DNA of 45,732 nucleotides from an uncultured Bacteroidia bacterium (GTDB lineage: Bacteria > Bacteroidota > Bacteroidia > Bacteroidales > Prolixibacteraceae). The notes under the pieces were generated by a model. The model searched no databases and was not told the DNA's origin. It was given only the letters and a program-made list of their open reading frames with translations. The DNA lies in contig CAIUUO010000204.1 of assembly GCA_903902325.1 (NCBI GenBank), forward strand, positions 1 to 45,732. Direction: 5' to 3'. Made by a program: the position numbers and the translations under genes. Below are positions 3,810 to 45,732 of this stretch, one piece after another (within the stretch, counting starts at the first letter, position 1; every line of letters begins with the position of its first letter).

Positions 3810-3917
3810 CCCCATTAATTTTAGATTCGGTCCCTGAGCCTGGACTCCCCTGAGCTTGTCGAAGGGTCGAAGGGTCGAAGGGTTTACAAAGTTGCATATA
3901 TATAAATCGAAGAAAAA

Positions 3918-3979
3918 TCACCACATAGGCACATAGGTCACAATAGAGATTCTATGTGTTCTATGTGCCTATGTGGTGA
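3918..3979. repeat. Long inverted repeat (hairpin) of CACATAGG nonamers
   Basis: The left arm begins TCACCACATAGGCACATAG and the right arm ends with its exact reverse complement, ending GTGGTGA. The pairing continues inward with a few mismatches to ATAGA/TCTAT around a 3-4 base loop, so nearly the whole 62 bases could fold. The right side continues into AAATTTTT, so the transcript could use it as a terminator for cdsA. Each arm is built of about three nine-base words. It belongs to the same style of element as the copies at 16412 and 38797. Confidence 0.85.
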
Positions 3980-4022
3980 AATTTTTAGAATTGATTATCA
4001 GTAAATTATCGAATTTGCACAT

Positions 4023-4111
4023 CAGCTAATCAGCTAATCATCACATTTTCACAATTTCAAATTTTTCAAATAGTCAAATAGTCGAATTGTCACATCGTCG
4101 AATTGGCGAAT
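4023..4111 (+). repeat. Degenerate octamer array upstream of psd
   Basis: Eleven consecutive words, ten of them eight bases long and one of nine, mostly end in AAT or CAT: CAGCTAAT twice, then words such as AGTCAAAT, AGTCGAAT, TGTCACAT, CGTCGAAT and TGGCGAAT. In reverse complement they follow an ATTnGnCn pattern shared with the arrays at 19054, 19398, 28946, 29062 and 45691. The array ends 16 bases before the psd -7 box. Confidence 0.75.
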
Positions 4112-4126
4112 TCCAAAATTATTGAC

Positions 4127-4134
4127 TATTTTTG
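4127..4134 (+). promoter_or_regulatory. Candidate -7 promoter box for psd-pssA
   Basis: TATTTTTG matches TAnnTTTG and sits 20 bases upstream of the psd ATG. An ATTG at 4102-4105 lies about 21 bases upstream of it as a plausible -33 element; it falls inside the last octamer words of the repeat array. Confidence 0.5.
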
Positions 4135-4154
4135 CCTGAACCAATCAAAAAAGG

Positions 4155-7670: not shown

Positions 7671-7674
7671 AGAA

Positions 7675-7713
7675 GGATAAAGGATAAAGGCAAAAGGATA
7701 AAGTAAGGAACGC
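7675..7713 (+). repeat. GGnnAAA heptamer element, copy A
   Basis: Four heptamers in register (two GGATAAA, one GGCAAAA, one GGATAAA) are followed by the tail GTAAGGAACGC. The same four-unit-plus-tail design recurs at 21206-21244 (minus), 41471-41505 (plus) and 41569-41607 (minus). It starts four bases after the asnB stop codon. Confidence 0.85.
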
Positions 7714-7801: not shown

Positions 7802-7845
7802 ACTTTAGGCACTTTAGTTCACTCTCGTTCACTTTAGGCACTTTT
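7802..7845. repeat. ACTTTAGGC 9-10-base word array at the 3' end of cdaA
   Basis: Words ACTTTAGGC, ACTTTAGTTC, ACTCTCGTTC, ACTTTAGGC and a partial ACTTTT follow each other. The array runs over the end of cdaA: its TAA stop (7834-7836 on the complement) and the last codons lie inside the repeat. Confidence 0.75.
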
Positions 7846-8619
7846 TTGTTCCGACTGAAGGATTCTGAACAACTCATCAGGGGTTACATTTTCAATCAGC
7901 AGCCCATTTTCTGTAACGGAAATCTTACCCGTCTCTTCACTCACAACGATGGTAAAGGCATCTGTTACTTCAGACATTCCGATGGCAGCGCGGTGTCTCA
8001 ATCCAAGAGCAGGGTTGATTTCCTGGCTGGAAGAAACCGGCAATATGCACCTGACCGCCTGTATCCGGTTGGCAGCAACAATACAGGCTCCGTCGTGGAG
8101 CGGCGAATTTTTAAAGAAAATACTGCATATCAGGTCGGTCCGTATCTCTGAATCAATGAATTCTCCGGTACGGATATACTCTTTCAGCTCATTATCCCTT
8201 GAAATAACAATCAGCGCACCAGTCTTGCTTTTGGCCATCTGGATACAGGCATCCACAATGGATTTGATTCCTCCCGGGGAGATGTTTCTAAACTGGCTGG
8301 AGATGAGCGATCCTATTGATATTCGTTTGTTGTTTTTGTAACTGTTGCCAAGCATCAGCAAAAACCGGCGTATCTCCTGCTGAAACACCACAATAAGCGC
8401 GATCATGCCCACACCAAACAACTGACTGAGGATAGACCCCAGCAACTCCATTTTCAGGGCCCTGACAACAACCCAGGCCACAAAAACAATAAATATTCCC
8501 AGGAAAATACTGAAGGTAACCGTCCCTCTTACCAGACTGTACAATTCATAAAACAGAATCGCCACAAAAAATATGTCGAGGACATCCAGAAATTTGATGT
8601 GTATAAAGAAATCAGACAT
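7834..8619 (-). CDS. cdaA: Diadenylate cyclase CdaA (DisA_N domain)
   Basis: CdaA joins two ATP molecules to make the second messenger c-di-AMP, which controls potassium and osmolyte balance. The 261-residue protein has about three N-terminal membrane segments (residues 10-80), a short coiled linker, and the DAC domain with its two signature sites: DGA at 176-178 (in PLHDGACIV) and RHR at 208-210 (in GLRHRAAIGMSE). Length and layout match the membrane-bound CdaA class. It starts three bases after folP, so the two are co-transcribed, the usual order in Bacteroidota. The last residues and stop codon are encoded by the ACTTTAGGC repeat array, so the extreme C terminus may vary between strains. 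No c-di-AMP phosphodiesterase gene is seen in the window. Confidence 0.95.
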   Translation of the reverse strand: MSDFFIHIKFLDVLDIFFVAILFYELYSLVRGTVTFSIFLGIFIVFVAWVVVRALKMELLGSILSQLFGVGMIALIVVFQQEIRRFLLMLGNSYKNNKRISIGSLISSQFRNISPGGIKSIVDACIQMAKSKTGALIVISRDNELKEYIRTGEFIDSEIRTDLICSIFFKNSPLHDGACIVAANRIQAVRCILPVSSSQEINPALGLRHRAAIGMSEVTDAFTIVVSEETGKISVTENGLLIENVTPDELFRILQSEQKSA

Positions 8620-11440: not shown

Positions 11441-12199
11441 ATGAGAAAGAAAATAGTAGCTGGTAACTGGAAATGCAACACAACCGTAAGCGAAGGTGTT
11501 GCACTGGCAAAACAGGTAAGCGACCTTGTTGTTTCAAAAGGTGCGAAAGACGTAGTTGTCGTTTTAGGCACACCCTTTACCCACCTCACCAGTGTAGCAG
11601 CGATTATTGATAAAAGCAGGGTATCCGTTGCCGCCCAAAACTGCGCAGCCGAACCCAAAGGCGCATTTACCGGCGAGGTTTCCGTATCGATGATTCAATC
11701 GACCGGAGCAACGTTCATCATCATCGGACACTCCGAACGCCGCGATTACTACCACGAAACAAGCGAAATCCTCAACAAGAAAGTGGCTTTGACACTGGCT
11801 CAGGGTTTAACTCCAATATATTGCTGTGGGGAAGCGCTTGCGATCCGGGAAGCCGGTACCGAAAATGCTTTCGTCCAAAATCAGCTGGAAGAGACCATCT
11901 TCAACCTTTCCGCAGAAGACTTCGGCAAAATTGTAATCGCCTATGAACCCATCTGGGCCATCGGAACCGGTCGCACGGCAAGTTCGCAGCAGGCACAGGA
12001 CATGCTGGCATTTATTCGCGGACTGATCGCAAAAAAATACAATCAATCCATTGCAGATAATTGTTCCATCCTGTACGGCGGATCATGCAGTCCTGCCAAC
12101 GCCAATGAATTGTTCGGACAACCGGATATCGACGGCGGACTGATCGGCGGCGCTTCCTTGAAAGCGGATGATTTTCTGGCGATCATAAATGCCTATTAA
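11441..12199 (+). CDS. tpiA: Triosephosphate isomerase
   Basis: TpiA interconverts dihydroxyacetone phosphate and glyceraldehyde 3-phosphate in glycolysis and gluconeogenesis. The 252-residue barrel has all catalytic residues: Asn9 and Lys11 in AGNWKCN, His97 in IIGHSERR, and Glu169 in [11 protein letters not shown], followed by the phosphate loop GGS and the final GLIGGASL. Length is normal for the family. It has its own promoter box upstream and a clear terminator at 12314-12354. A repeat of ATTGACA heptamers lies between the stop codon and that terminator. Confidence 0.98.
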
Positions 12200-12207
12200 A
12201 ATTAAAA

Positions 12208-12277
12208 ATTGACAATTGAGAGTTGACAATTGACAATGATGCGAAATGTGAGATTTTTCGCAAAAAACAATTGTCAA
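12208..12277. repeat. ATTGACA heptamer array with inverted partner, copy 1
   Basis: Four heptamers in register (ATTGACA, ATTGAGA, GTTGACA, ATTGACA; 12208-12235) run into ATGATGC, and a single inverted word CAATTGTCAA follows at 12268-12277. Between them GCGAAA and TTTCGC can pair, so the whole could form a hairpin. It starts eight bases after the tpiA stop. A second copy with the same GTTGACA unit and a similar ATnATGC end lies at 42777-42811. Confidence 0.75.
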
Positions 12278-16387: not shown

Positions 16388-16411
16388 GAGTTTCCAAAAA
16401 AGGAGGTGTAT

Positions 16412-16514
16412 TTAACCACAAAGGACACGAAGTCAAACACGAAGGTCACAAAGTAATGGATATCTAATATCAATTTTGTGTCCTTTGAGCATCCTTTGTG
16501 CCCTTTGTGGTTAA
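16412..16514. repeat. AACCACAAAGG nonamer inverted element, copy 1
   Basis: The left arm starts TTAACCACAAAGGACACGAA and the right arm ends with near reverse complement CCCTTTGTGGTTAA; arms of about 43 bases with several mismatches enclose an AT-rich core. Each arm is built of words about nine bases long. A second copy lies at 38797-38893, and the last 40 or so bases of the two copies differ at only about three positions. It sits between the start of the phosphoesterase gene and the end of the flavodiiron gene. Confidence 0.85.
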
Positions 16515-16545
16515 ACCTTTCTTCTAGGACACAATCCTTCAAAAT

Positions 16546-17745: not shown

Positions 17746-17776
17746 ATTGTTAAATATTTTTACTGAGTTCCATCTG

Positions 17777-17784
17777 CAAAAATA
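17777..17784 (-). promoter_or_regulatory. Candidate -7 box of the flavodiiron gene
   Basis: On the minus strand TATTTTTG fits TAnnTTTG and lies about 31 bases upstream of the ATG. The -33 region is not clear. Confidence 0.45.
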
Positions 17785-17857
17785 CAATATTATCACTTAA
17801 CAGACCTGCGGACCCGCAACATTTGATCCTCCTGTTTAACAATTTGCTTTAAAATTG

Positions 17858-34009: not shown

Positions 34010-34037
34010 CAGCAAGGAATAATGGATACTTATATTC

Positions 34038-34070
34038 AGTACAAATCTGTACTTATGTAAAAAATTACAT
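34038..34070. promoter_or_regulatory. Two adjacent perfect dyads upstream of the activase gene
   Basis: AGTACA-n4-TGTACT (34038-34053) and ATGTAA-n4-TTACAT (34055-34070) are both perfect 6-4-6 palindromes, one base apart, with centres 17 bases apart. They lie about 30-60 bases upstream of the -7 box candidate at 34101, a place suited to an activator or repressor. The regulator is not identifiable from sequence. Confidence 0.5.
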
Positions 34071-34100
34071 ATAAATATATCCGAAACAGAAAAAATTCAG

Positions 34101-34108
34101 TAGTTTAG
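34101..34108 (+). promoter_or_regulatory. Candidate -7 box of the activase gene
   Basis: TAGTTTAG matches TAnnTTTG in all but one fixed position (seventh base) and lies 28 bases upstream of the ATG. Confidence 0.4.
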
Positions 34109-34136
34109 AAGCGCAAACCATAACTTCCCTTTACTG

Positions 34137-37100
34137 ATGCATCCTATTTCCTCCAAGACTGAACCTGCAGTAAGTAAAAAAAACTTCGGATTTGATATTG
34201 GTTCAATATCAGTCAATACGGTGGTTCTGGATCCTGAGAACAAAGTTTTGGATAATCGCTATGATTTCTGTTTTGGAAGACCCTTCCATGTGCTAAAAGA
34301 TATTTTGACCGATCTCGTTACTGCAATCGGAGTTGAAAACATTGGTTTGATTGCTTTTACCGGTACAGGTGGTAAACAGGCATCAGAAATGCTGGGTGGT
34401 TGTTTTGTCAACGAAATTATCAGTCAGTCGACTTCCGTCTCAAAGTTATATCCTGAAGCAAAGACAATCATTGAAATGGGAGGTGAAGACTCCAAACTGA
34501 TCTTCATGGAACATAAGGTGGTCACCAACAAATCCCAGCTTTCCGATTTTGCCCTGAACACATTGTGTGCTGCCGGAACGGGTTCCTTCCTGGATCAGCA
34601 GGCAAAGAGAATTGGGGTTTCCATCGTCAATGAATTCGGAGAGCTATCCCTGAAATCAGAAAATCCACCGCGTATCGCCGGCAGATGCTCCGTATTCGCC
34701 AAAAGCGATATGATTCACCTGCAACAGGTTGCCACTCCTTTGCACGACATCGTGGCAGGCCTCTGTTTTGCCGTCGCCCGCAACTTTAAAAGTACACTTG
34801 GACGAGGTAAGAAGTTCAGTAAACCCATCCTTTTTCAGGGAGGTGTTGCAGCCAATGTCGGTATGATAAGAGCCTTTGAAGAAGTGCTGGAACTGGAAAA
34901 AGGGGAACTGATCATACCCGAATTCCATGCCTCCATGGGCGCAATCGGCGCAGTATTTTACGCTCTTGAAAATCCCAAAACGACCCATATCTACAAAGGG
35001 ATGGAGGCTCTGGATCAATTTCTTTCCGGTGATAAAACGGATAAAAAATACCTGACTCCGCTAAAAGAATCGGAGGCCGTTTACAATAGAAATGTTACGC
35101 CGATTCCGGAAGGAACTACTGGCAAATTTCCGGTATATCTTGGTATTGACGTGGGATCGCTTAGTACCAATGTGGTCCTGATTGACGATAAGAATAACGT
35201 GATTGCCAGACGCTACCTGCCTACAGCCAGCAAACCCCTGGATGCGATCCGGCGGGGACTGACTGAAATTTACGATGAAGTAGGCGAACGTGTCGTGGTC
35301 AGGGCCTCTGGGACTACGGGTTCAGGGCGCTATCTGACAGGCGACTTCATCGGGGCGGATACCATTCAGAATGAGATCACTGCCCAGGCCACTGCTGCCA
35401 TCGCCTATGACCCAACTGTTGATACCATTTTTGAAATTGGCGGACAGGATTCAAAGTATATCCGGATTGAAAACGGAGTGGTAGTCGACTTCGAAATGAA
35501 TAAAGTCTGCGCTGCAGGAACCGGTTCATTTCTGGAGGAGCAGGCTGAAAAGCTGGACATCAGTATCGTCAATGAATTTGGAAACCTGGCACTGAGTTCC
35601 TGTCAGCCCTGCAAACTGGGAGATCGTTGCACCGTCTTCATGGAATCTGACCTGAATTCTCACCAGCAGAAAGGTGAGACGAAGGAAAACCTGGTTGGTG
35701 GTCTGGCCTATTCGATTGTCTACAATTATATCCAGAAAGTCGTAGGAACAAAACCCATCGGCAATAAAATCTTTTTCCAGGGTGGGGTCACCAACAACAA
35801 GTCTGTGGTTGCCGCATTCGAGGAGGTATCTGGCAAAAAAATAATTATCCCGCCGCATTACGACGTCACCGGTGCCATCGGTGCAGCCATCCTGGCCCGC
35901 AATATGATGAAACCAGAAGCAACATCCAGATTCAAAGGATTTGGGGTTTCTAAATTGCCCTATTCGCTCAAAAAATTCACCTGCAAGCATTGTTCCAACA
36001 ATTGTGAGGTGCAGATGGTCAAGATTGAAGGTGAAATGAAGGCGCTCTATTTCGGAGGACGTTGCGACAGGTGGGAGGTAGCCGACCGAAAGGGCAAAGG
36101 GAAGGACATTCCCAATCTGTTCGAAGAAAGGCTGAGATTACTTGTTGGTGACTACGTAGAAGAAGCATCGAGTGACAAAATCTCGATAGGTATTCCGCGT
36201 GCATTGATGCTTTATTACCAGCAATTTCCATTCTGGAGAACCTTCTTTCGGGAACTGGGATTTCGTTTAGTCGTTTCCGATCCAACAGATTCAAGGATCG
36301 TTACCAATTCCATAGAATCCATCGTGGCAGAAACATGTTTTCCAGTTGAACTGATGCACGGCCATATCAACAACTTGCTGGAAAAGAATGTGGATTTTGT
36401 CTTCACCCCATTCATTGTCAACGCAAAGGCAACTGCCAGCAATCCGACCAGTAACTGCAATTGCCCCTGGATTCAGTCGTATCCCTTCATGGTCAAGGGA
36501 GCCATGCACAACAACCCGCTCACTGAAAAGCTCCTGGTTCCAACACTCCATTTCCGGTTTTCCGAAAAAGTCATTCTGAAGGAACTCGCTGAATTCATGA
36601 AGGAGAAATTCGGTACTTCTGCATCGAGGGTTCAGAAGGCATTCAGGAAAGCGGATGAGACCCAGATCGCTTTTGAGCATGCGGTGAACCGCCGGGGAGC
36701 AGAGGTAATGGCCAACCTGCCCAAAGACAAAAAAGCAATGGTCATCATAGGAAGGCCCTACAATTCGGCGGATACCATGCTTAATCTTAACCTGGTTGAG
36801 AAATTGATTAACATGGATATTCTACCTATTCCACTTGATTACCTTCCACTTCATACCATCAACGTTTTTGAAGATTACCCCAGAATGTACTGGCCCAACG
36901 GACAAAAGATACTGGCTGCGTCCAAAATAGTAAGTCAGACAGAAAATTTATACGCGGTGTATCTGAGTAATTTCCGGTGCGGTCCGGATTCATTCCTGCA
37001 CCATTTTGTCCGGGATGAACTGAAAGGCAAACCCTACCTGCTGCTTGAAGTGGATGAGCACAGTGCAGATGCCGGATTATTGACGCGTTGTGAAGCTTTT

Positions 37101-38396
37101 CTCGATAGTCTGGATGGTTACAGGAAAGTTCATTTAAAGACAGATACGATAGCTCCTTTCCGTATGATCCGCCATTTCAACGATGACAGAACCATCTATT
37201 TCCCTTATATGCGTGACGCTGCCTATGCAGTCTCGGCCGCAGTGAGGAGCTGTGGCATTAAATCCGAAGTGCTGCCCATGACGGATGAAAATGCCATTGA
37301 ACTGGCAAGAAGACATACCTCGTCCCAGGAGTGCTTTCCTCTGACCTGCACGACAGGCAGCTTTCTTCAGAAGCTGATGGAACCTGGAATCGACCCAAAA
37401 AAGGTGGCATTCTTCATGCCGGATCACAACGGTCCGTGCCGATTTGGCCAGTACAACTTGTTGCAGCGAAAAATTTTCGACAGGTTAGGTTTTCAGGATG
37501 TTGAAATCATCTCTCCGGGAAACGACGATTCGTATGAAACCATGGCCGCAGGACATTCGACCAAGTTCAGGTTCACCGCCTGGAAAGGTATGATAGCTGT
37601 AGACCTGCTCAGGAAAATGCAGCAGGAACGCAGGCCATATGAAGCGCTGAAAGGTATGACAGATAAGATATACAGGCAATATCTGGGCGAGGTGATCCGG
37701 TCACTTGAAAACGGAGCAAAGGGTTTGAATGATGTTCTTCGCAGATCGGCTGAAGCTTTCAATATCATTCCAATTGTGATCGGGTACCGTAAACCCGTGA
37801 TTCCAGTAATTGGTGAAGTTTTCATGCGAGACAACCCGTTCTGCAATGGTTATGTGGTCCAAAGGCTGGAGGAACTGGGGGCAGAAACCTTCATGGCGCC
37901 GATGGCGGAGTGGATCAGTTACTCTACTTACCGATACTGGCGCGACAGTATCTGGAAATCCGACTTCAAAGGACTGTTCAAATCCAAAATCCAGGAGTTT
38001 TCGCAGCATCTTTCTCAGAGTATGCTGAATAAAACAGTTAGAGGTGTGGCTGAACTGGATCGGGATTTGCATCTAAAAGAGATGCTTGAAGCGTGTGGCA
38101 CCTATGTCCACAAGCATTATGATGGTGATCCTGCGCTTGCAATGGGAGCTGCCGTGAATCTGACGAAGACCAACATTTCCGGAATTGCCAATGTCCTTCC
38201 GTTCACCTGCATGCCCGGAACACTTATCACTTCGGTGTCACATCTATTCAGGAAGGATCACGACAATATCCCATGGGAAAACATAGCCTACGACGGACAG
38301 GATTCCATCAACATCGATACGCGCCTGCAGGCTTTCATGCATCAGGCACACCTGTACTGCCAGGAAAAAGGATATGATAAGGCACGGGTCTGGTAG
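34137..38396 (+). CDS. Giant acyl-CoA dehydratase activase / 2-hydroxyacyl-CoA dehydratase-like fusion
   Basis: This 1419-residue protein fuses two BadF/BadG/BcrA/BcrD-type ATPase domains (about 17-290 and 335-600) to DUF2229-like and dehydratase-like domains. Each ATPase copy has the acetate-kinase/Hsp70-fold motifs (FDIGSISVNTV and GIDVGSLSTNVV), the helix-cluster motif with CAAGTGSFL (Cys144 and Cys458) that in HgdC-type activators binds a bridging [4Fe-4S] cluster, and GGVAAN or GGVTNN. Then come a cysteine cluster (CKHCSNNCE near 620), the DUF2229 region (IGIPRALMLYYQQFPFW onwards), and a C-terminal part with ECFPLTCTTGSF and NGPCRFGQYN typical of the dehydratase D component. The family drives difficult electron transfers with ATP; the substrate of this large form is unknown to me. 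It is O2-sensitive by analogy. Confidence 0.88.
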   Translation: MHPISSKTEPAVSKKNFGFDIGSISVNTVVLDPENKVLDNRYDFCFGRPFHVLKDILTDLVTAIGVENIGLIAFTGTGGKQASEMLGGCFVNEIISQSTSVSKLYPEAKTIIEMGGEDSKLIFMEHKVVTNKSQLSDFALNTLCAAGTGSFLDQQAKRIGVSIVNEFGELSLKSENPPRIAGRCSVFAKSDMIHLQQVATPLHDIVAGLCFAVARNFKSTLGRGKKFSKPILFQGGVAANVGMIRAFEEVLELEKGELIIPEFHASMGAIGAVFYALENPKTTHIYKGMEALDQFLSGDKTDKKYLTPLKESEAVYNRNVTPIPEGTTGKFPVYLGIDVGSLSTNVVLIDDKNNVIARRYLPTASKPLDAIRRGLTEIYDEVGERVVVRASGTTGSGRYLTGDFIGADTIQNEITAQATAAIAYDPTVDTIFEIGGQDSKYIRIENGVVVDFEMNKVCAAGTGSFLEEQAEKLDISIVNEFGNLALSSCQPCKLGDRCTVFMESDLNSHQQKGETKENLVGGLAYSIVYNYIQKVVGTKPIGNKIFFQGGVTNNKSVVAAFEEVSGKKIIIPPHYDVTGAIGAAILARNMMKPEATSRFKGFGVSKLPYSLKKFTCKHCSNNCEVQMVKIEGEMKALYFGGRCDRWEVADRKGKGKDIPNLFEERLRLLVGDYVEEASSDKISIGIPRALMLYYQQFPFWRTFFRELGFRLVVSDPTDSRIVTNSIESIVAETCFPVELMHGHINNLLEKNVDFVFTPFIVNAKATASNPTSNCNCPWIQSYPFMVKGAMHNNPLTEKLLVPTLHFRFSEKVILKELAEFMKEKFGTSASRVQKAFRKADETQIAFEHAVNRRGAEVMANLPKDKKAMVIIGRPYNSADTMLNLNLVEKLINMDILPIPLDYLPLHTINVFEDYPRMYWPNGQKILAASKIVSQTENLYAVYLSNFRCGPDSFLHHFVRDELKGKPYLLLEVDEHSADAGLLTRCEAFLDSLDGYRKVHLKTDTIAPFRMIRHFNDDRTIYFPYMRDAAYAVSAAVRSCGIKSEVLPMTDENAIELARRHTSSQECFPLTCTTGSFLQKLMEPGIDPKKVAFFMPDHNGPCRFGQYNLLQRKIFDRLGFQDVEIISPGNDDSYETMAAGHSTKFRFTAWKGMIAVDLLRKMQQERRPYEALKGMTDKIYRQYLGEVIRSLENGAKGLNDVLRRSAEAFNIIPIVIGYRKPVIPVIGEVFMRDNPFCNGYVVQRLEELGAETFMAPMAEWISYSTYRYWRDSIWKSDFKGLFKSKIQEFSQHLSQSMLNKTVRGVAELDRDLHLKEMLEACGTYVHKHYDGDPALAMGAAVNLTKTNISGIANVLPFTCMPGTLITSVSHLFRKDHDNIPWENIAYDGQDSINIDTRLQAFMHQAHLYCQEKGYDKARVW

Positions 38397-38416
38397 TTTA
38401 TCTTAAATGCAATTAT

Positions 38417-38761
38417 ATGGCTTACAATATTAAACTGGCTGACAGGATACGTGAAAGATTAGCAAACCTTCCGGTCATTGAGGAAAAGGAGATGATGGGC
38501 GGTCTGGCCTTCATGGTCAACGATAAAATGTGTGTTGGTGTAATCAAGGAGGATATGATGTGTCGGATTGAACCTGATTTACATGCAGAAGTCATTGAAA
38601 AACAGGGATGCAGAACCATGGATTTCACCAAACAGCATATGAAGGGCTGGATCATGGTCGATGAAACAGGTATAAGGAATGCAAAGGAACTTGACTTTTA
38701 CATCAACCTTGCACTCGATTTTAATGCCAGGGCAAAAGCAACAAAGAAAAAGAAAAAGTGA
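38417..38761 (+). CDS. TfoX N-terminal domain protein
   Basis: The 114-residue protein is a stand-alone TfoX N-terminal domain: start with LADRIRERL, then the hallmark EKEMMGGLAFMVNDKMCVGVIKED, MCRIEPD, and the late KGWIMVDETGI followed by a helix. In gammaproteobacteria TfoX/Sxy activates competence genes with a second domain that is absent here; stand-alone copies are common and of unknown role. It ends in a lysine-rich tail. It follows the activase gene by 20 bases and is probably co-transcribed. A nonamer inverted element lies 35 bases downstream. Confidence 0.87.
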   Translation: MAYNIKLADRIRERLANLPVIEEKEMMGGLAFMVNDKMCVGVIKEDMMCRIEPDLHAEVIEKQGCRTMDFTKQHMKGWIMVDETGIRNAKELDFYINLALDFNARAKATKKKKK

Positions 38762-38796
38762 GTAAATGGAACACTTGTCCTAAGAGTAAAGATATC

Positions 38797-38893
38797 TAAC
38801 CACGAAGGACCCGAAGGCAAAACACAAAGGACACAAATTGGAAACATTCACCCTTCGTGTCCTTTGAGCATCCTTAGTGCCCTTTGTGGTTAA
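38797..38893. repeat. AACCACGAAGG nonamer inverted element, copy 2
   Basis: Same layout as 16412-16514: a left arm TAACCACGAAGGACCCGAAG, an AT-rich middle and a right arm ending CCCTTTGTGGTTAA. The right arm differs from copy 1 at about three positions. Here it lies between two convergent genes (tfoX-like and HD protein). Confidence 0.87.
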
Positions 38894-38930
38894 AAAGAAT
38901 TACGTTCATTCTCACAAAGTCAGACAAGAG

Positions 38931-39425
38931 CTACTTTCCAAACAATTCCTCAATCACCCTTCTTCCGCTTTCCGACTTGAAATTCAATTCCACAAACCTG
39001 CGAATCCCTTCCGGTGAAATCTCCTCCTCCACCGCATTGACCAGGAAGTCGGCTTCCACCAGCAATTGAAAATCTATGCCGTCAATGGCCGAAAAAGTGT
39101 GATGCTTGCTGACGATAAAACAAACCCTGTCAATTACAACGGGGTCTACGGCAATATTCTCCAATATTTGCCTGGCTACCGGCGGACCTTCAATCTCCTG
39201 TTTTTGCCCATCGGAGTAGCCATGCTTCACTTCGGAAACATGGATGCCAATATCATGCAGGACGGCTGTCAATTCCAGGATAAACTGTTGCTCAGGTGTT
39301 AATCCTTCCAGCCTTCCAAGCAATTGGGCATATCCATACACTTTCAGGGAATGTTCAATTCTTTTCTGGTCACCCCTGTTCCTGTTCATCATTTCCAACA
39401 GGGCTAATGCTATCTGTTTATCCAT
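38931..39425 (-). CDS. HD-domain phosphohydrolase
   Basis: The 164-residue protein is an HD-superfamily metal-dependent phosphohydrolase. Visible ligands are His25 (RIEHSLKVYGYA), the His-Asp pair in AVLHDIGIH, a later KHHTF, and Asp in LLVEADFLVNAVEE. The substrate is unknown; small HD proteins often act on nucleotides. Its ATG overlaps the end of uvrB by eight bases, so it is translated from the uvrB transcript. Confidence 0.85.
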   Translation of the reverse strand: MDKQIALALLEMMNRNRGDQKRIEHSLKVYGYAQLLGRLEGLTPEQQFILELTAVLHDIGIHVSEVKHGYSDGQKQEIEGPPVARQILENIAVDPVVIDRVCFIVSKHHTFSAIDGIDFQLLVEADFLVNAVEEEISPEGIRRFVELNFKSESGRRVIEELFGK

Positions 39426-41445
39426 TTTTTCGTTCTTTCAGCAGTTTTTGCAAGGCAAACATCTCATCCCGCAACCTCGCCGCTTCGATGAAATCGAGTT
39501 CCTTGGCAGCTTTCTCCATCTCTTTTTTGGTTTTCAGTATCGCTTTTTCAAGGGCATCTGGTGTCAGGTAAGCCAGTACCGGATCTGCAGCGTAGTCAAT
39601 GGTCTCAGGCGGAACATAGGGCTTCCCTCCCAATCCCTTGGTCAGCCTATACTCCATGCCGATGATCTCACGGGTCGGTTTGACGATCTGCGTGGGTGTG
39701 ATGTCGTTGGCCAGGTTGTAGGCATGCTGCTTGTTCCTGCGGTAATTCGAGGCATCAATGGTCCGCTGCATCGAATCCGTGACCTTGTCGGCATACATGA
39801 TGACCCGTCCGTTCAGGTTACGGGCTGCACGTCCTGCCGTTTGCGTAAGCGATCGTTCCGATCGGAGGAATCCCTCCTTGTCGGCATCCAGAATCGCTAC
39901 CAGCGATACTTCCGGCAGATCGAGTCCCTCCCGAAGAAGGTTGATCCCGACCAGCACATCAAAACTCCCTTTCCGCAATTCTTCCATGATCTCCACCCGC
40001 TCCATGGTATCCACATCTGAGTGGATATACCGGCATTTGATGTTGATTCGGTCAAAGTATTTGGAAAGCTCCTCAGCCATTCTTTTGGTCAGAGTGGTAA
40101 CAAGTACCCGCTCATTCTTCTCAACACGGAGATGAATCTCATGGATCAGATCATCCACCTGGTTGTGCGCAGGCCTTATCTCGATAATCGGGTCAAGCAG
40201 GCCTGTAGGACGGATGATCTGCTCCACAATCACTCCCTCACTCTTCTGCAGTTCATAATCTGCAGGCGTAGCGCTCACAAAGATCATCTGCGTGGCAATC
40301 GCCTCAAATTCGTCAAATTTCAAGGGGCGGTTGTCGATGGCGGCCGGTAACCGGAAGCCGTAATCCACTAGCGTGGTTTTCCTGGAACGGTCACCACCAT
40401 ACATCGCCCGGATCTGCGGCATCGTCACATGACTCTCGTCGATGATCATCAGGAAATCGTCAGGGAAAAAATCGAGCAGACAGAATGGTCTCGATCCCGG
40501 AACCCTTCCGTCAAAATATCGGGAATAATTTTCGATACCCGGACAATAACCCAACTCCCGGATCATCTCCAGGTCGTAATTGACCCGGTCTTCAATGCGT
40601 TTGGCTTCGGCATGCTTGCCGATGCTCTTAAAGAAATCTATCTGTTTGACCAGGTCATCCTGGATCTGTCGAATCGCCGCCTTGGTTCGGTCTTTCGTGG
40701 TAACAAATATATTGGCTGGATAGATGGCATAATGGTCGTGCAGACTCAAAAAAGCGCCGTTTTCGGGATTGAAAGTGGATATTTCCTCGATCTCATCACC
40801 GAAGAACTGAATCCGCACCGCATCGTCCGCGTAAGCGGGAAAAATATCGACGGTATCGCCCTTCACCCGGAAGTTTCCCCGCTGAAAATCAAGATCGGTC
40901 CGGGAATACATCGCATCCACCAGCTTCCTCAACATCACATTCCTTCCCAACTGCTCACCTATTTTGATATGGGTGACGTTGGCATGGAAATCCTCCGGGT
41001 TACCAATACCATAAATACATGACACGGAAGAGACGACCACAATATCCCTCCGGCCGGAGAGAAGTGAAGAAGTCGCTGCAAGCCGCAGCTTTTCAATCTC
41101 CTTGTTGATGGCCAGGTCTTTTTCAATAAAAGTATCGGTAGTTGGCAAATAGGCTTCCGGCTGGTAATAATCGTAGTAGGAGACGAAGTATTGAACCGCA
41201 TTCTCCGGGAAAAACTGCTTCATCTCGCCGTATAACTGGGCAGCCAGCGTCTTATTGTGGCTTAGTATCAGCGTTGGTTTCTGTACCTTTTCGATCACGT
41301 TGGCCATGGTGAAGGTCTTTCCCGAACCCGTCACGCCAAGCAGAGTCTGGTAAGGGTAACCGGACGAGATCCCCTCACTCAGTTGCGAATTGGCCTGTGG
41401 CTGGTCTCCCGTGGGAATGAAATCGGCCGTTATTTTAAAATCCAT
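39418..41445 (-). CDS. uvrB: Excinuclease ABC subunit B
   Basis: UvrB is the damage-verifying helicase-like core of nucleotide excision repair. The 675-residue protein has Walker A GVTGSGKT at 37-44, the beta-hairpin region with YDYYQPEAYLP, the DESHVT Walker B, the helicase motifs including EGLDLPEVSLVAILDADKEGFLRS and QTAGRAARN, and the C-terminal UVR motif (DFIEAARLRDEM). I chose the start MDFKITADFIPTGDQP at 41445; an in-frame start at 41556 is only a read-through of the heptamer element upstream. Length is normal. It leads a two-gene operon with the HD protein. Confidence 0.97.
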   Translation of the reverse strand: MDFKITADFIPTGDQPQANSQLSEGISSGYPYQTLLGVTGSGKTFTMANVIEKVQKPTLILSHNKTLAAQLYGEMKQFFPENAVQYFVSYYDYYQPEAYLPTTDTFIEKDLAINKEIEKLRLAATSSLLSGRRDIVVVSSVSCIYGIGNPEDFHANVTHIKIGEQLGRNVMLRKLVDAMYSRTDLDFQRGNFRVKGDTVDIFPAYADDAVRIQFFGDEIEEISTFNPENGAFLSLHDHYAIYPANIFVTTKDRTKAAIRQIQDDLVKQIDFFKSIGKHAEAKRIEDRVNYDLEMIRELGYCPGIENYSRYFDGRVPGSRPFCLLDFFPDDFLMIIDESHVTMPQIRAMYGGDRSRKTTLVDYGFRLPAAIDNRPLKFDEFEAIATQMIFVSATPADYELQKSEGVIVEQIIRPTGLLDPIIEIRPAHNQVDDLIHEIHLRVEKNERVLVTTLTKRMAEELSKYFDRINIKCRYIHSDVDTMERVEIMEELRKGSFDVLVGINLLREGLDLPEVSLVAILDADKEGFLRSERSLTQTAGRAARNLNGRVIMYADKVTDSMQRTIDASNYRRNKQHAYNLANDITPTQIVKPTREIIGMEYRLTKGLGGKPYVPPETIDYAADPVLAYLTPDALEKAILKTKKEMEKAAKELDFIEAARLRDEMFALQKLLKERKNG

Positions 41446-41470
41446 GTTGCAAAATGTTCCATTTAAAAAA

Positions 41471-41505
41471 GGATAAAGGATAAAGGAAAAAGGATAAAGT
41501 ACGCT
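41471..41505 (+). repeat. GGnnAAA heptamer element, copy C1
   Basis: Four heptamers (GGATAAA, GGATAAA, GGAAAAA, GGATAAA), then a shortened tail GTACGCT. It lies 25 bases upstream of the uvrB start and is the inverted partner of copy C2. Confidence 0.88.
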
Positions 41506-41568
41506 ACCTTCAAAATAGTACGAAAATTGAAGGATTGAGTTTTTAATTTTGTGCAAATAATGTAATAA

Positions 41569-41607
41569 GCGTTCTTGACTTTTTCCTTTTTCCTTTAGCC
41601 TTTAGCC
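41569..41607 (-). repeat. GGnnAAA heptamer element, copy C2 (inverted)
   Basis: On the minus strand: two GGCTAAA, two GGAAAAA, then the tail GTCAAGAACGC. It ends eight bases from the stop of the HAD gene. The 63-base core between C1 and C2 is AT-rich and without a visible gene. Confidence 0.88.
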
Positions 41608-41615
41608 TTCCTTTT

Positions 41616-42209
41616 TCAGTAAAAAGGTGTTACATCGGTTGCCATCATCCCCGCTGCTTTTGCTGCCTGCAGGCCGAGTTTGCTGTCTTCGAACACCTGG
41701 CAATATTCTGGTGCAACGCCAATGAGTTCTGCAGCTTTCAAGAAAGTATCCGGATGAGGCTTGTGGTTTACAACATCCTCCGCAGTGACAACATGTTCAA
41801 AATGATCACGAACTCCGGCAAGTTCCAGGGTCTTAAGGGCATAGAACCTTGTTCCTCCGGTTCCACAAGCCATGGGAAGTTTTCCGGAATATTCCTTAAT
41901 AATTTTAACTACCGGTAAAATTGGATCGGCCAGGTGAATATTGCTGAGGAAATTTAATTCCTTCCTGTCCGCAAATTCCTGAGGATCGAAATCTTTCTGG
42001 AATTTATCTTTCAGAATTGCACTGGTTTGGTAAGCTGGAATACCGCTCAATTTAAAATATACTTCAGCCGTGATTTCAAACCCGTATTCAGCAGCTGTCT
42101 GCTGGTAGGCTTTAAAATGAATTGGCATGGTATCTGAAATCGTACCATCGATATCAAATATCAATCCCCTGGCTCTTGGGTCTACTAATAACTCTCGATT
42201 TTTAATCAT
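41616..42209 (-). CDS. HAD-superfamily phosphatase (beta-phosphoglucomutase/YqaB-like)
   Basis: The 197-residue protein has the HAD nucleophile motif FDIDGTISDTMP, a helical cap, the second motif ACGTGG, the lysine of motif III in VNHKPHPDTF and the acidic motif IV in VFEDSKLGLQAA. The spacing of the cap and the HFKAYQQTAAEYGF stretch fit YqaB-type sugar-phosphate phosphatases or beta-phosphoglucomutases; the substrate cannot be fixed from sequence. I chose the ATG at 42209 (MIKNRELL); upstream in-frame extension is unconserved and would cross a promoter box. Divergent from the small membrane protein gene. Confidence 0.88.
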   Translation of the reverse strand: MIKNRELLVDPRARGLIFDIDGTISDTMPIHFKAYQQTAAEYGFEITAEVYFKLSGIPAYQTSAILKDKFQKDFDPQEFADRKELNFLSNIHLADPILPVVKIIKEYSGKLPMACGTGGTRFYALKTLELAGVRDHFEHVVTAEDVVNHKPHPDTFLKAAELIGVAPEYCQVFEDSKLGLQAAKAAGMMATDVTPFY

Positions 42210-42228
42210 CGGATGCTCTTGTTTTCGG

Positions 42229-42236
42229 CAAAAATA
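42229..42236 (-). promoter_or_regulatory. Candidate -7 box of the HAD gene
   Basis: On the minus strand TATTTTTG fits TAnnTTTG, about 19 bases upstream of the ATG. Confidence 0.45.
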
Positions 42237-42368
42237 GCGAATTACGACCTTGACTGGTATATGTGACCAAATAAACTTCAAATTAGGGGATAAATAACCA
42301 TCCTTGATCAAGGATATTTTGCTAATTTGCGGATACAAATACAGGTCGTTTATATAAAATTTGCAACC

Positions 42369-42761
42369 ATGCAGAATCACGAACTTTACCTGCCCATGCT
42401 GATTCCCATGTGGGGGATATTTATCGGCATTGCATTGATTATCATCGGTTACGCAGATAATAAATCTTACTTCACCTATGCCGGCTGGATGGTTTTGGTG
42501 ATTAACGGACTGATCTCTCTTTATTTCAATCTGTTTGAAATAAGTCCGGGGCATTTTGCAGCGAACACCTCTTTTCAGGAAACCGCCGGATTTCTTAAAA
42601 CGACGGGTTGGCTCAATACGACGGGCGCCTTTTTGGCTATGACGTCCCTTCTTTTTTTCCGATTCAAAAAAAAGAGATACATGCTTTTGGCTGTACTCAC
42701 GATCCTGTTCTTTTCCGTCCTGTTTTTCCAGTATTATGGACTTATTCAGAAACCAAAGTAA
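42369..42761 (+). CDS. Small four-helix membrane protein, unknown
   Basis: The 130-residue protein has four hydrophobic segments (about 8-30, 36-58, 80-97, 104-123) and short polar loops; the last two helices are separated by RFKKKR, which should face the cytoplasm. No motif of a known family is recognised. I chose the ATG at 42369 (MQNHELYLP); an upstream in-frame ATG at 42327 would add 14 residues without membrane character. It is divergent from the HAD gene. An ATTGACA heptamer array begins 15 bases after the stop. Confidence 0.7.
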   Translation: MQNHELYLPMLIPMWGIFIGIALIIIGYADNKSYFTYAGWMVLVINGLISLYFNLFEISPGHFAANTSFQETAGFLKTTGWLNTTGAFLAMTSLLFFRFKKKRYMLLAVLTILFFSVLFFQYYGLIQKPK

Positions 42762-42776
42762 GCATCACACGTAAAA

Positions 42777-42811
42777 ATTGACAATGGACAATGGACAGTT
42801 GACAATTATGC
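42777..42811 (+). repeat. ATTGACA heptamer array, copy 2, left arm
   Basis: ATTGACA, ATGGACA, ATGGACA, GTTGACA, then ATTATGC, all in seven-base register. The GTTGACA word and the ATnATGC end are shared with copy 1 at 12208. Confidence 0.88.
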
Positions 42812-42934
42812 ATCAATCTGATTTCATGTGCAATAGAAAAATAATACATTAAATGCTTTTAAATTTACAATAGAAATAAATTCAATATCAGTTTACAATT
42901 CAGGTGCAAATCACCATCCATTTATTCCATCCAT

Positions 42935-42962
42935 TGTCAATTGTCAATTGTCCATTGTCAAT
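42935..42962 (-). repeat. ATTGACA heptamer array, copy 2, right (inverted) arm
   Basis: Four units TGTCAAT, TGTCAAT, TGTCCAT, TGTCAAT in register are the reverse complement of the left-arm words, across a 123-base AT-rich core. The arm ends seven bases before a -7 promoter box. Confidence 0.9.
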
Positions 42963-42969
42963 TAGATAC

Positions 42970-42977
42970 TATCTTCG
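42970..42977 (+). promoter_or_regulatory. Candidate -7 box of the DUF7935-like gene and ovoA
   Basis: TATCTTCG matches TAnnTTTG with one mismatch, 24 bases upstream of the chosen ATG. The matching -33 region falls inside the inverted heptamer array. Confidence 0.4.
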
Positions 42978-43001
42978 TTGCAACAATTAATTCTGAATAT
43001 T

Positions 43002-43535
43002 ATGGCCAATGATATCGGTGGGTTTTGGGAAATTCTGAAAATAGTGCTGCCGGCACTGATCGTTTTTATTACTGCCTATTTCCTTTTTCGCGACATGCTC
43101 GAAAATGACCAGCGCCGCAGAGAGTTTGAATTCAGGGTCATCCATGCCAAGGAGATGACACCCGTTAAATTGCAGGCCTATGAACGGCTGACCATTTTTT
43201 TGGAGCGTATCTCACCAGAATCGATGTTGCTGCGGCATTCACCGCACGAAATGACAGTCGTTGAATATCACCAGGTTCTTCTGAGCGCCATACGGCAGGA
43301 ATACGAGCATAATCTTTCCCAGCAGATCTATGTCTCGACCATCCTCTGGGAGACGATACGCGGCGCCAAGGAAAAACTGGTCACACTGATCAACCGCTCG
43401 GCGGAGGAACTGGATCAGAACAGTCCGGGCTACGAACTCAGCAAGAAAATCTTCAACGAATACCTGGATGAAGATCCTGCACCAGTCGCACTGGCTCTGG
43501 CCGATCTCAAAAAAGAGGTAGGGAAATTTTTGTGA
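43002..43535 (+). CDS. Conserved Bacteroidota protein with one membrane segment (DUF7935-like)
   Basis: The 177-residue protein has one N-terminal membrane helix (about 10-28) and a helical cytoplasmic part with the stretch TPVKLQAYERLTIFLERISP, then IRQEYEHNLSQQIYVS and a long helix with WETIRGAKEKLVTLIN. I recall this pattern as DUF7935 in Bacteroidota, of unknown function; confidence in the exact family name is moderate. I chose the ATG at 43002; an in-frame TTG at 42978 adds eight residues and lies on the promoter box. It is 47 bases upstream of ovoA and may be co-transcribed. Confidence 0.75.
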   Translation: MANDIGGFWEILKIVLPALIVFITAYFLFRDMLENDQRRREFEFRVIHAKEMTPVKLQAYERLTIFLERISPESMLLRHSPHEMTVVEYHQVLLSAIRQEYEHNLSQQIYVSTILWETIRGAKEKLVTLINRSAEELDQNSPGYELSKKIFNEYLDEDPAPVALALADLKKEVGKFL

Positions 43536-43582
43536 TTCCTGCATAAAATAAATCTTTCGTTTATCCCTTAATATCAAGCGAT

Positions 43583-45691
43583 ATGGATTCCCGTTTTATC
43601 ACTAAGACAATCAACTTAAATTTAGGTGACCCTGAGCAGAAAAGGGCTGAAATACTCGACTATTTCAAAAAAACCTACAGACTGGATGAGCATCTTTTTG
43701 AAGTATTTTCCGACAAGGCAGGTATGTACCGGACTGCAGACCCGCTGCGGCATCCGCTGATTTTCTATTTCGGCCATACTGCCGCTTTCTATATCAACAA
43801 ACTAGTTGTCTCGAAAGTACTGGACAGCAGGATCAATCCAAAGTTTGAGGCCATGTTCGCTATCGGAGTCGATGAGATGTCGTGGGACGACCTCAACCAA
43901 AGCAATTACAGTTGGCCAACGATACCCGAAATCAAAAGCTACCGCGAAGCTGTTTACGAAACGGTGGTTAAAATCATCGAGACCCTTCCCATGCAGCTAC
44001 CTGTCCGCTGGGAAGATCCCATGTGGATCATACTGATGGGAATCGAACATTCGCGTATCCATATCGAGACCTCCTCCGTGCTCATTCGTCAACTCCCGCT
44101 GGAATACCTGAAACCTATTCCGGGTTGGATCACCTGTGACTCCAACGGACCTGCACCCGAAAACCAACTGATCAAAGCTGCAGGCGCAACTGTCACTTTG
44201 GGCAAATCCTTCAGTGATCCGCTTTATGGCTGGGACAATGAATATGGAACCCATCATGCGGATGTGGCAGATTTCGAAGCAAGTAAATTCCTGTGTTCCA
44301 ATGGGGAATTCCTGGAATTTATCAAAGACCAGGGTTATCATTCCGAAAAATACTGGACCGAAGAGGGCTGGAAATGGAAATCCTATATCAAGGCTGAACA
44401 TCCTTTGTTCTGGCGGAAGAAAGACCAAAAATATAAGCTAAGACTTGTATTCGAAGAGATAGATATGCCCTGGAACTGGCCGGTTGAGGTCAACTACCTC
44501 GAGGCAAAAGCCTTCTGCAACTGGAAGAAGGAAAAAACGGGACTTCCCGTCAGGCTGATGACTGAAGAAGAGTGGTATCTGCTCCGCGACAAAGCCAGGA
44601 TTCCGGATATGCCGCAATGGAAGACGGCTCCCGGGAACATCAATTTGGAGCATTTCCAGAGTCCTTGTCCTGTAGATCAATTTGCCAATGGCGATTTTTA
44701 CGATCTCGTCGGGAATGTCTGGCAATGGACGGAAACACCTATCTCAGGCTATGAAGGATTCAGGATACATCCATCCTACGACGATTTTTCGACACCCACC
44801 TTCGATACAAGGCACAACATGATCAAGGGCGGTTCATGGATCTCCACAGGCAATGAAGCCATCCGGGATTCCAGGTATGCCTTCAGGCGGCATTTTTACC
44901 AGCATGCCGGATTCAGGTATGTGTCATCTTACCAGGAAGTCGTCATCAAAAACGACACCTACGAAACAGACCCGGAAGTCATTCTTTATTGTGAAACACA
45001 TTATGGCCTGTCAACTTCCGATGTACCCAATTTCCAGAAGGAAATCGCCGGTTTCTGCTCAAATCTCGACTCCCTTGAACTGAAGCGCTGCGCCCTCGAC
45101 CTGGGATGCAAGACAGGAAGAACGACCTGGGAGCTTGCCCGCACTTTCAACAACGTAACCGGCGTGGATCTCTCGGCCCGGACCATTCGGGTAGCCACGC
45201 AGTTGCAGGAACAGGGAAGGTTCAACTACATCTTTCCCGAAGAGGGAGAGATCTGCGATTACAGGCAGGTGACCCTCGAAGATTTTGACCTGAAACCACT
45301 GGTCAAAAAGGTGAAATTCCTGCAAGCCGATTTCGCCAACATGAAAAACATCTTCAGCGGTTACGACCTGATCCTCCTGAACGATATCCTCGACAGGATC
45401 TACCAGCCCAAGGAACTGCTGGCACAACTCCACCGCCGGATGAATGACAATGGTGTTCTGGTGATCGCCACGGCTTACGACTGGGACGAGAAATATACCA
45501 AAACCGAAAACTGGCTGGGCGGTTACCGCAGCTCTGCGGAACCTGTCAGGGGAAAGGAAACCGTCGAAGAGTTGCTGAAGGAAAACTTTGTGCAAACGGA
45601 TGAATCCATCACATTACCATCCCTTTTCAGGATCAATAAACGGAAATCCGTTTTGAAGAATATTGAAGTGACGGTTTGGAAGAAGAATTAA
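43583..45691 (+). CDS. ovoA: Ovothiol synthase OvoA: 5-histidylcysteine sulfoxide synthase with methyltransferase domain
   Basis: OvoA joins cysteine and histidine with O2 at a non-haem iron to give 5-histidylcysteine sulfoxide, the first step to the antioxidant ovothiol; its fused methyltransferase N-methylates the later 5-thiohistidine. The 702-residue protein has all three domains: an N-terminal DinB-like domain with the iron ligands H-x3-H-x-E (His156, His160, Glu162 in HSRIHIE), a formylglycine-generating-enzyme-like domain (about 195-450, with VGNVWQWTET, GGSW at 416 and FRRHFYQHAGFRYV), and an AdoMet domain (LDLGCKTG at 505-512). EgtB is excluded because of the C-terminal methyltransferase. 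The sulfoxide lyase gene ovoB is not in the window. The last A of the stop codon is the first base of an octamer array. Confidence 0.93.
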   Translation: MDSRFITKTINLNLGDPEQKRAEILDYFKKTYRLDEHLFEVFSDKAGMYRTADPLRHPLIFYFGHTAAFYINKLVVSKVLDSRINPKFEAMFAIGVDEMSWDDLNQSNYSWPTIPEIKSYREAVYETVVKIIETLPMQLPVRWEDPMWIILMGIEHSRIHIETSSVLIRQLPLEYLKPIPGWITCDSNGPAPENQLIKAAGATVTLGKSFSDPLYGWDNEYGTHHADVADFEASKFLCSNGEFLEFIKDQGYHSEKYWTEEGWKWKSYIKAEHPLFWRKKDQKYKLRLVFEEIDMPWNWPVEVNYLEAKAFCNWKKEKTGLPVRLMTEEEWYLLRDKARIPDMPQWKTAPGNINLEHFQSPCPVDQFANGDFYDLVGNVWQWTETPISGYEGFRIHPSYDDFSTPTFDTRHNMIKGGSWISTGNEAIRDSRYAFRRHFYQHAGFRYVSSYQEVVIKNDTYETDPEVILYCETHYGLSTSDVPNFQKEIAGFCSNLDSLELKRCALDLGCKTGRTTWELARTFNNVTGVDLSARTIRVATQLQEQGRFNYIFPEEGEICDYRQVTLEDFDLKPLVKKVKFLQADFANMKNIFSGYDLILLNDILDRIYQPKELLAQLHRRMNDNGVLVIATAYDWDEKYTKTENWLGGYRSSAEPVRGKETVEELLKENFVQTDESITLPSLFRINKRKSVLKNIEVTVWKKN

Positions 45692-45732
45692 TTCGACAAT
45701 TCGGCAATTCGACAATTCGACAATGAAAGGAA
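45691..45732 (+). repeat. ATTCGACA octamer array at the right window edge
   Basis: Units ATTCGACA, ATTCGGCA, ATTCGACA, ATTCGACA, then ATGAAAGGAA to the window end. The final two units and tail are identical to 28954-28979 after gyrB. Its inverted partner, if any, lies beyond the window. Confidence 0.92.

Follow-up and report, generated by a model that had tools for sequence, protein, structure and literature searches.

Inverted arrays of short tandem words between the genes of an uncultured Prolixibacteraceae bacterium and their possible origin as small foldback elements

Introduction

What are the short repeated words that lie between the genes of a 45,732-nucleotide contig of an uncultured Prolixibacteraceae bacterium (Bacteroidota; GenBank assembly GCA_903902325.1, contig CAIUUO010000204.1), and how did they come to be there? 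An earlier note on this stretch, made from the letters alone, held that its intergenic gaps are built from arrays of 7- to 10-base words in exact register, that some sites have two arms in opposite orientation, and that the arrays represent a family of small elements or a nucleoid or RNA-structure system. By counting the arrays against shuffled sequence and comparing the gaps that hold them with orthologous gaps in relatives, we arrived at a tentative preference, just short of an even chance in our estimation, for several families of small (~60–410 bp), non-autonomous foldback elements resembling miniature inverted-repeat transposable elements (MITEs) and tolerated downstream of genes.

Related repeats are in print, and the following four papers are cited from parts of their text. 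Paired opposite-strand sites of 3–5 tandem heptamers or octamers, divided into classes 1–3 and multicopy, were described in Geobacter metallireducens in 2009 and read as regulator sites, with binding by a global regulator offered as a proposal (PMC2700814). G. bemidjiensis contains many multicopy sequences, the insertion of which was remarked to be non-random (PMC2996986). Arrays of the word TAACTGA occur in Beggiatoaceae, Cyanobacteria, and Bacteroidetes, some close relatives having none (PMC4679880), and repetitive extragenic palindromic (REP) sequences favor convergent and co-directional gaps near the 3′ ends of genes (PMC3733652).

Materials and Methods

The window, that is, the whole stretch analyzed, is one entire contig (C204) of a 4.79-Mb draft genome of 304 contigs, referred to as G000. 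A wider sample comprised 777 kb of G000 with 462 intergenic segments; as it consists of contigs matching the query that held the array at 19054, its array density overstates the genome-wide value. Arrays in the window were listed by Tandem Repeats Finder, and the sequences were also read directly. The window count covered periods of 5–12 (nearly all arrays have periods of 7–10), with nulls from shuffled intergenic sequence under Markov orders 1–4 (30 runs each) and a coding set of hand-picked open reading frames (ORFs; 41,207 bases), and nulls for the sample were of order 2 and order 4 (10 runs each). Gene calls were crude, and distances to start codons are the weaker half of the position data.

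Orthologous gaps were compared between G000 and seven congeners (G001–G007). A single convergent gap was also followed in a different genus of the same class, across 30 fetched loci, in 19 of which both sides were alignable. The 21-mer CTTTGTGTCCTTTGTGGTTAA, which is close to the arm end at sites of the type found at 16412, was scanned in 84,980 species genomes. The look for an autonomous relative covered Y1_Tnp loci and one inverted pair.

Results

Arrays occupied 784 of the 4,525 intergenic bases in the window, whereas the shuffles gave means of 5.8–9.4 and maxima of 29–53, and the coding set contained 132 array bases in 41,207. The 777-kb sample held 269 intergenic arrays (10,277 bp) against null means of 5.8 and 6.1 arrays (order 2 and order 4), with periods of 7 (111 arrays) and 8 (103; together 214) followed by 9 (38), 10 (9), and others (8). 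The arrays described in the earlier note are thereby confirmed as far above chance, and their positions were recovered by Tandem Repeats Finder save for the left arm at 16412 and the site at 38797. Two statements of the note need narrowing: arrays make up ~17% of the window’s intergenic bases and not entire gaps, and an exact period is kept by the 7- and 8-base arrays, while the CTTTGTG class (3918, 16412, 38797) has a looser register. The lexicon of G000 is large, with 110 distinct consensus words in 277 arrays. Arrays account for 2.1% (G007), 4.6% (G003), 7.0% (G006), and 8.1% (G001) of sampled intergenic DNA in congeners and for 0.7–4.9% in four genomes from other genera.

Many of these arrays are paired. 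All five sites described as having two opposite arms (3918, 16412, 19054, 28946, 42777) contain an inverted repeat, and 41468/41578 is a further one. A same-word inverted partner at least 25 bp away was present in 52 of 152 array-bearing gaps, compared with 19 when a randomly drawn other gap served as the partner source, and a same-word direct partner in 11 of 152, compared with 20. Opposite-strand pairs at variable distance, as in Geobacter, are thus found in these 52 gaps, the remaining gaps being pairless at that threshold; spacing between arms is 12–280 nt among the pairs shown, and sites in both the window and the sample have a few tandem 7- or 8-base units, again as in Geobacter. In the arm co-evolution comparison within G000, within-gap arm similarity was higher in 21 of 31 gaps.

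Some arrays at distant sites have common surroundings. The sequence CAATGAAAGGAA follows ATTCGACA arrays at both 28946 and 45690, and in the G000 sample GAACGC lies within 30 nt after 11 of 21 AAAGGAT-type arrays and before none, with 0.06 expected. When flanks of arrays from different gaps were compared, 34 pairs showed in-register similarity and the reversed control gave 0, a part of these 34 being further word units or other repeats.

Comparison of orthologous gaps revealed turnover between congeners, including sites at which some species have no array. The gap after a gyrase-B-family gene holds an inverted pair of ATTCGACA in G000, of ATTACAA in G003, and of GATTTTGG in G001 and G006; G005 has a short single arm, and G002, G004, and G007 have no array, the gyrase-B-family gene and the next gene overlapping by 1 bp in G007. 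The neighboring gyrase-B-family protein is 91–96% identical to those of the congeners with no array in the gap. After the isomerase gene, an AATTGAC insert separates stop codon and terminator in G000 and is absent from all seven congeners (by eye), G003 having a CGCAAAG foldback in its place (by eye). The gap at 19046–19457 measures 410 bp in G000 and 43 bp in G007. An AAAGGAT inverted pair near 41556 is common to G000, G001, and G003, with AAAGGTT units in both arms in G001. The word variants are species-specific, amounting to dialects: AAAGGNN units are AAAGGAT in 33 of 33 cases in G003 and are divided among AAAGGAT (9), AAAGGTT (7), AAAGGGT (5), and AAAGGGA (2) in G001, and the commonest 8-base units are AATGTGCT and AATTCGAC in G000, AATGTGGA and AATGTGAA in G001, and AATGTGAA in G003.

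The clearest case of dispersed copies came from the other genus. In G405 the convergent gap followed there spans 1 bp; one other locus has 27 bp, and the rest of the 19 loci have more. Among the 17 gaps of at least 40 bp, 15 have an inverted repeat exceeding that of all 40 shuffles (two only just), 12 hold at least two words of the CGCAAAG/CACAAAG/CGCTAAG/CATAGA type (shuffled means 0.1–0.9), and one, of 689 bp, looks like another kind of insert and not a foldback; related inserts are common to some species pairs. The 84-bp CGCAAAG foldback that occupies this gap in G423 is dispersed, with 17 full-length copies aligned from 5 genomes at 69–100% identity to the G423 insert, and the genome of G405, whose gap is empty, yielded no more than two partial matches to it. 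The copies start with TTTAACC in 15 of 17 cases and end with GGTTAA in 16 of 17, within one mismatch, and their flanks differ (by eye); dispersed copies with common ends, as in MITEs, were found for this class only. The stem shows no sign of being maintained, because complementarity between the arms of one copy does not exceed that between arms of different copies (within-copy match 18.5, between-copy 20.7; permutation p = 0.98), and two-sided change occurred at only 2 of 13 predicted pairs. The copies seem to descend from a palindromic source and to be decaying. In a separate observation, an efflux-type gene of G242 (locus L385, 329–1576; TolC-like by eye) has N-terminal residues that resemble a translated copy of CGCAAAG words, and a copy of the 84-bp type seems to be read through at its start.

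Arrays in G000 favor the 3′ ends of genes. Of those nearer to a stop codon, 97 of 155 lie within 15 bp of it (27% expected), and 36 of the 90 nearer to a start codon lie within 15 bp of the start (26% expected). Among gaps of at least 40 bp, the proportion with arrays is 33 of 65 where the gap is convergent, 102 of 243 where it is co-directional, and 13 of 73 where it is divergent, and inverted pairs number 17, 32, and 2 in these types, respectively. This is the preference for convergent gaps and co-directional 3′ ends known from REP sequences.

One arm reaches far beyond the genus. The 21-mer CTTTGTGTCCTTTGTGGTTAA was found in at least 113 DNA stretches, several genomes having more than one, against a chance expectation of ~0.1 by simple arithmetic on uniform base composition. 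By record title, 80 listed stretches out of these at least 113 belong to ~15 phylum-level groups; among the matches listed are Chloroflexi, Bacteroidota, Ignavibacteria, Planctomycetes, Verrucomicrobia, Kiritimatiellota, Desulfobacterales, Calditrichia, Acidobacteria, Spirochaetes, Cyanobacteria, WOR-3, Desantisbacteria, Gamma- and Betaproteobacteria, and Nitrospinota. The sources of the listed matches are mostly metagenome-assembled genomes, and titles read as isolates for Flavobacterium, Pedobacter, Mucilaginibacter, Calothrix, and Dulcicalothrix. A further unit lies within 24 nt upstream in 90 of the 122 matches listed, 9–12 nt away in 80 of the 90. The loci listed contain 165 three-unit arms against 0 in reversed sequence, a lenient control because the pattern itself had selected these loci; the G000 sample, in whose selection the pattern played no part, has 43 three-unit arms against 1 in reversed sequence. 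The first 80 loci hold 87 matches, of which 73 are intergenic and 34 have an inverted partner within 200 bp, the gaps being co-directional (31), convergent (23), or divergent (7).

Within its own phylum the arm is patchy and not universal: of 296 genomes, 8 contain a 17-mer of CTTTGTGTCCTTTGTGGTTAA, G000 among them, and 0 the backward control. Among 147 other genomes of the phylum, three tandem AATTGAC units occurred in 4 and three AAAGGAT units in 2 (backward control 0). When the words of arrays in the far loci were compared with the G000 lexicon, exact matches were at the level of the controls (6 of 180, compared with 4 when reversed and a mean of 3.8 when shuffled), and matches allowing one mismatch were slightly above them (60 of 180; reversed 48, shuffled 45). 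A search with 16405–16520 gave no match in plasmids or Escherichia coli at E 0.01 with the low-complexity filter on. Carriage by phages was considered and set aside, the 17-mer occurring in 27 viral stretches and its reversal in 10, a difference too weak to claim.

The sites in the window illustrate these forms. Two are compact foldbacks: one of the word CTATGTG/CACATAG at 3902–3995 (arms 3902–3942 and 3955–3995; RNA fold of 3915–3985, z −11.7) and one of CACAAAGGA/CTTTGTG at 16411–16515 (arms 16411–16432 and 16494–16515; RNA fold of 16408–16518, z −7.9). A third, imperfect CACAAAGGA/CTTTGTG foldback lies at 38797–38895 (RNA fold of 38797–38900, z −5.3), and within 38780–38930 no ungapped inverted repeat reaches 16 nt. 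A further pair follows a YceG-family gene, with a left arm of ~16 units of the 8-base ATGTGCTA at 19048–19179 (plus strand) and an inverted right arm at 19396–19461 (minus strand) that extends to the next start codon (both-arm fold 19048–19461, z −11.0). Directly 3′ of the gyrase-B-family gene, the 8-base ATTCGACA array at 28943–28975 (plus) with its tail AATGAAAGGAA is paired with inverted units at 29066–29126 (minus; both-arm fold 28943–29130, z −4.2), and the array with the same word and tail at 45688–45728 (plus) begins at the stop of ORF 43583–45691, where the contig ends. AATTGAC arms lie downstream of a gene end at 42776–42807 (plus) and, as the inverted partner, at 42930–42963 (minus; both-arm fold 42776–42965, z −5.9). 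The AAAGGAT pair consists of 41468–41500 (plus), within the called 5′ end of ORF 39418–41556, and 41578–41610 (minus), at the stop of 41616–42554 (both-arm fold 41468–41612, z −6.0); because the left arm falls inside the ORF, the called start of the latter is probably too far upstream.

Single arrays include AAAGGAT with the tail AAGGAACGC at 7672–7703 (plus), beginning ~2 bp past the stop of an asparagine-synthase-like gene; the 10-base ACTTTAGGC at 7802–7844 (plus), at the stop of the minus-strand gene 7834–8619; AATTGAC at 12196–12238 (plus), between the triosephosphate isomerase stop and the terminator; an ATTACAA arm with the tail ATGAATGGGG at 20047–20091 (minus), at the stop of a murB-like gene; and AAAGGAT with the tail AAAGAACGC at 21210–21247 (minus), at the stop of gene 21239–22003. 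Tandem Repeats Finder also listed the 8-base GTCGAAGG at 3855–3887, adjoining a dispersed CCTGAGCCTG..CTTGTCGAAGG sequence, the 8-base ATCAGCTA, TCACATTT, and TCAAATAG at 4016–4092, upstream of the gene at 4155, the 7-base GGTTACA at 21123–21189 (plus), and a 10-base CTCTGTG array at 29842–29882 (plus). Contig ends fall inside arrays at 45690–45732 of the window and at the start of L002 (C185), and since two contigs end in this way, arrays probably break the assembly.

Other repeats accompany the arrays. A TCGGTCCCTGAGCCTGTCGAAGG-type sequence dispersed over several gaps (window 3816–3890; L010, L025, L052, L055, L060, L062) is a separate repeat family, and hairpins of the GTAGAGACG...CGTCTCTAC type occur in several gaps (L011 near 5430, L067 near 8430, L016 near 13940). 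ATGTGCTA arrays in L012, L049, L062, and L064 are followed by a common hairpin sequence of the CGACTCCGGGGTTTAGCCGC type, L012 having three copies ~156 bp apart. A possible gained block lies at 32612–38761 of the window, where a run of three ORFs is missing from the syntenic stretch of G007.

Five Y1_Tnp matches were located in G000 (L155–L159, on C87, C66, C61, C207, and C44), four of them above the cut-off. A link to REP-associated tyrosine transposases (RAYTs) was rejected, the five loci (16 kb) holding one CGCAAAG-type arm against ~0.9 expected from the sample density; that arm, of three units, lies 384 bp downstream of the match in L155, and 8-base arrays lie near the match in L157. No dedicated RAYT gene flanked by the same repeat, as in REP and REPIN (paired REP) systems, was found in these loci. 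By eye, the flanks of the Y1_Tnp matches carry hairpins of their own, such as GCGGTTGGAAACCGCG around L158, and in L155 similar stretches with CGCAAAGTGATCGGAAG flank the gene (1211, 2207), followed by a CGCAAAG foldback at ~2296–2380.

Discussion

Dispersed copies, insert-free gaps, dialects, shared flanks, and the absence of stem maintenance together lead us to favor foldback elements over replication slippage, nucleoid sites, or RNA stems. A full element would consist of two opposite arms, each made of one 7- to 12-base word in tandem repetition, variants being tolerated, and enclosing a core that is short or mostly unconserved, and in some families the arms would carry a conserved inner tail. 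Copies would be insertions of an element mobilized in trans by a putative enzyme and would survive chiefly in the space from a stop codon to the terminator or the following gene, presumably a harmless place; single arms may be decayed or partial copies, and slippage during replication could later alter the number of words per arm. The succession of arm, core, and arm recalls the foldback (FB/TU) elements of animals, which have inverted arms of short tandem repeats around an unrelated core, by analogy only, as FB/TU elements are eukaryotic and larger.

Several observations pull the other way. What is seen in the 84-bp class is carried over to the 7- and 8-base classes by structural analogy, and for the 84-bp class itself the query was cut at the common ends, the stop of similarity there was judged by eye from the flanks, and no target-site duplication was visible by eye beside the copies. 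No autonomous relative with the same ends was found in the five Y1_Tnp loci of G000 or in one inverted pair of G242, and that single close pair flanks the efflux-type gene. Many arrays are single arms; the GAACGC tail follows only 3 of 26 arrays in congeners (G003 3 of 15, G001 0 of 5, G007 0 of 6); and flanks matched those of any other gap in 119 of 360 cases (reversed control 21), so that cores are mostly unlike. Lastly, the gap at 21106–21239 is 132 bp long in both G000 and G007 with arrays in place and differing words, the counterpart of the GGTTACA array in G007 being GAGTTAT-type units (by eye), and word replacement or drift would fit this gap as well as insertion.

Slippage could also account for the arrays from the outset, growing them in place from chance short repeats in tolerant 3′ spacers, with inverted partners made by template switching to a nearby strand and nothing moving. 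We consider this possible and rather doubtful. It would suit the dominance of 7-base units, as in the survey of long simple sequence repeats cited in the part of PMC4679880 consulted, the variation of unit numbers and variants between sites, and the failure of exact words in far loci to match the G000 lexicon better than controls; it does not readily produce in-register flanks at distant gaps, GAACGC after half of the arrays of one type in G000 (rare as this tail is in three congeners), separated same-word arrays that are far more often inverted than direct (52 against 11 gaps), or full-length 84-bp copies dispersed in other genomes. At the part of the sites that have inverted partners and in-register flanks, the description of a plain microsatellite or long simple sequence repeat, a direct array with no conserved flanks, does not apply.

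The alternatives of a nucleoid or RNA-structure system, which the note had left beside its family of elements, fared less well. Arms in the 3′ untranslated region might form stems that stabilize or end transcripts, and the seven both-arm sites all fold better than shuffles (z −4.2 to −11.7), while arrays in general favor the 3′ ends of genes; such sites fold well by construction, however, because their arms are inverted, the arms of the 84-bp copies, no better matched within than between copies, and their scarce two-sided changes speak against selection on a stem, and the window has no Rfam match at the gathering score, with two weak matches far below it in 16300–19500. We regard an RNA function as improbable. 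More improbable still, in our judgment, is that the pairs serve a nucleoid protein, DNA-bending or other, an idea proposed for similar pairs in G. metallireducens (sites of the IHF/HU type), where the text consulted describes a like architecture of 3–5 tandem 7- or 8-base repeats in opposite-strand pairs, at variable distance in classes 1 and 2 (PMC2700814): congeners with a 91–96% identical gyrase-B-family protein do without arrays in the gap, one genome uses 110 words, and divergent gaps are depleted. A reading of the words as stop codons in all frames was dropped, as ATTCGACA on inspection contains none. What remains of the note’s proposal is the small elements, in the form of several families and not one, as suggested by arrayless gaps in congeners, differing words at one and the same site, in-register flanks, and the dispersed 84-bp family.

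The paired tandem-word architecture is already in print, and the present finding is a variant of it. With G. metallireducens (PMC2700814) the arrays have in common 3–5 tandem 7- or 8-base units, opposite-strand pairs, and multiple copies; the words printed in the part consulted are others, and empty sites, placement at stop codons, and words common to several phyla, all present here, are not among what was seen there. The TAACTGA repeats (PMC4679880) are likewise 7-base tandem words, intergenic and patchy across phyla, but in the part consulted a single word is involved, with arrays that are mostly direct and placed immediately 5′ of start codons, whereas here there are many words, inverted pairs, and a position mainly after stops. 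REP and REPIN sequences with their RAYTs (PMC3733652, in part) are similar as small palindromes that lie near the 3′ ends of genes, mostly where gaps are convergent or co-directional, and differ in that the arms here are tandem words with no enrichment near Y1_Tnp genes; the GTAG/CGTC tags were not searched for. In open-licence PubMed Central text, exact word strings had no match, and shorter strings gave only seemingly unrelated papers among the matches listed; an empty-site comparison of inverted pairs, dialects, and a cross-phylum CTTTGTG arm were not found there either, and description elsewhere is possible.

A broader proposal, which we hold to be unlikely on balance yet worth stating, is that of a pan-bacterial class of word-armed foldbacks sharing the same arm grammar, with one 21-base arm in ~15 phylum-level groups. 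Such elements would pass between phyla, moved by a widespread putative enzyme that reads repeated words and not a fixed terminal sequence, and the dialects would be each species’ own bursts.

If the reading as foldback elements is true, a sizeable share of spacer DNA in some bacteria would be a little-described small repeat with turnover between congeneric species, a preference for the ends of genes, and one word recurring across phyla. This would bear on the reading of 3′ regions, on terminator prediction, and on breaks in draft assemblies, and the old puzzle of tandem heptamers and octamers in Geobacter and Beggiatoaceae would become testable through the comparison of orthologous gaps.

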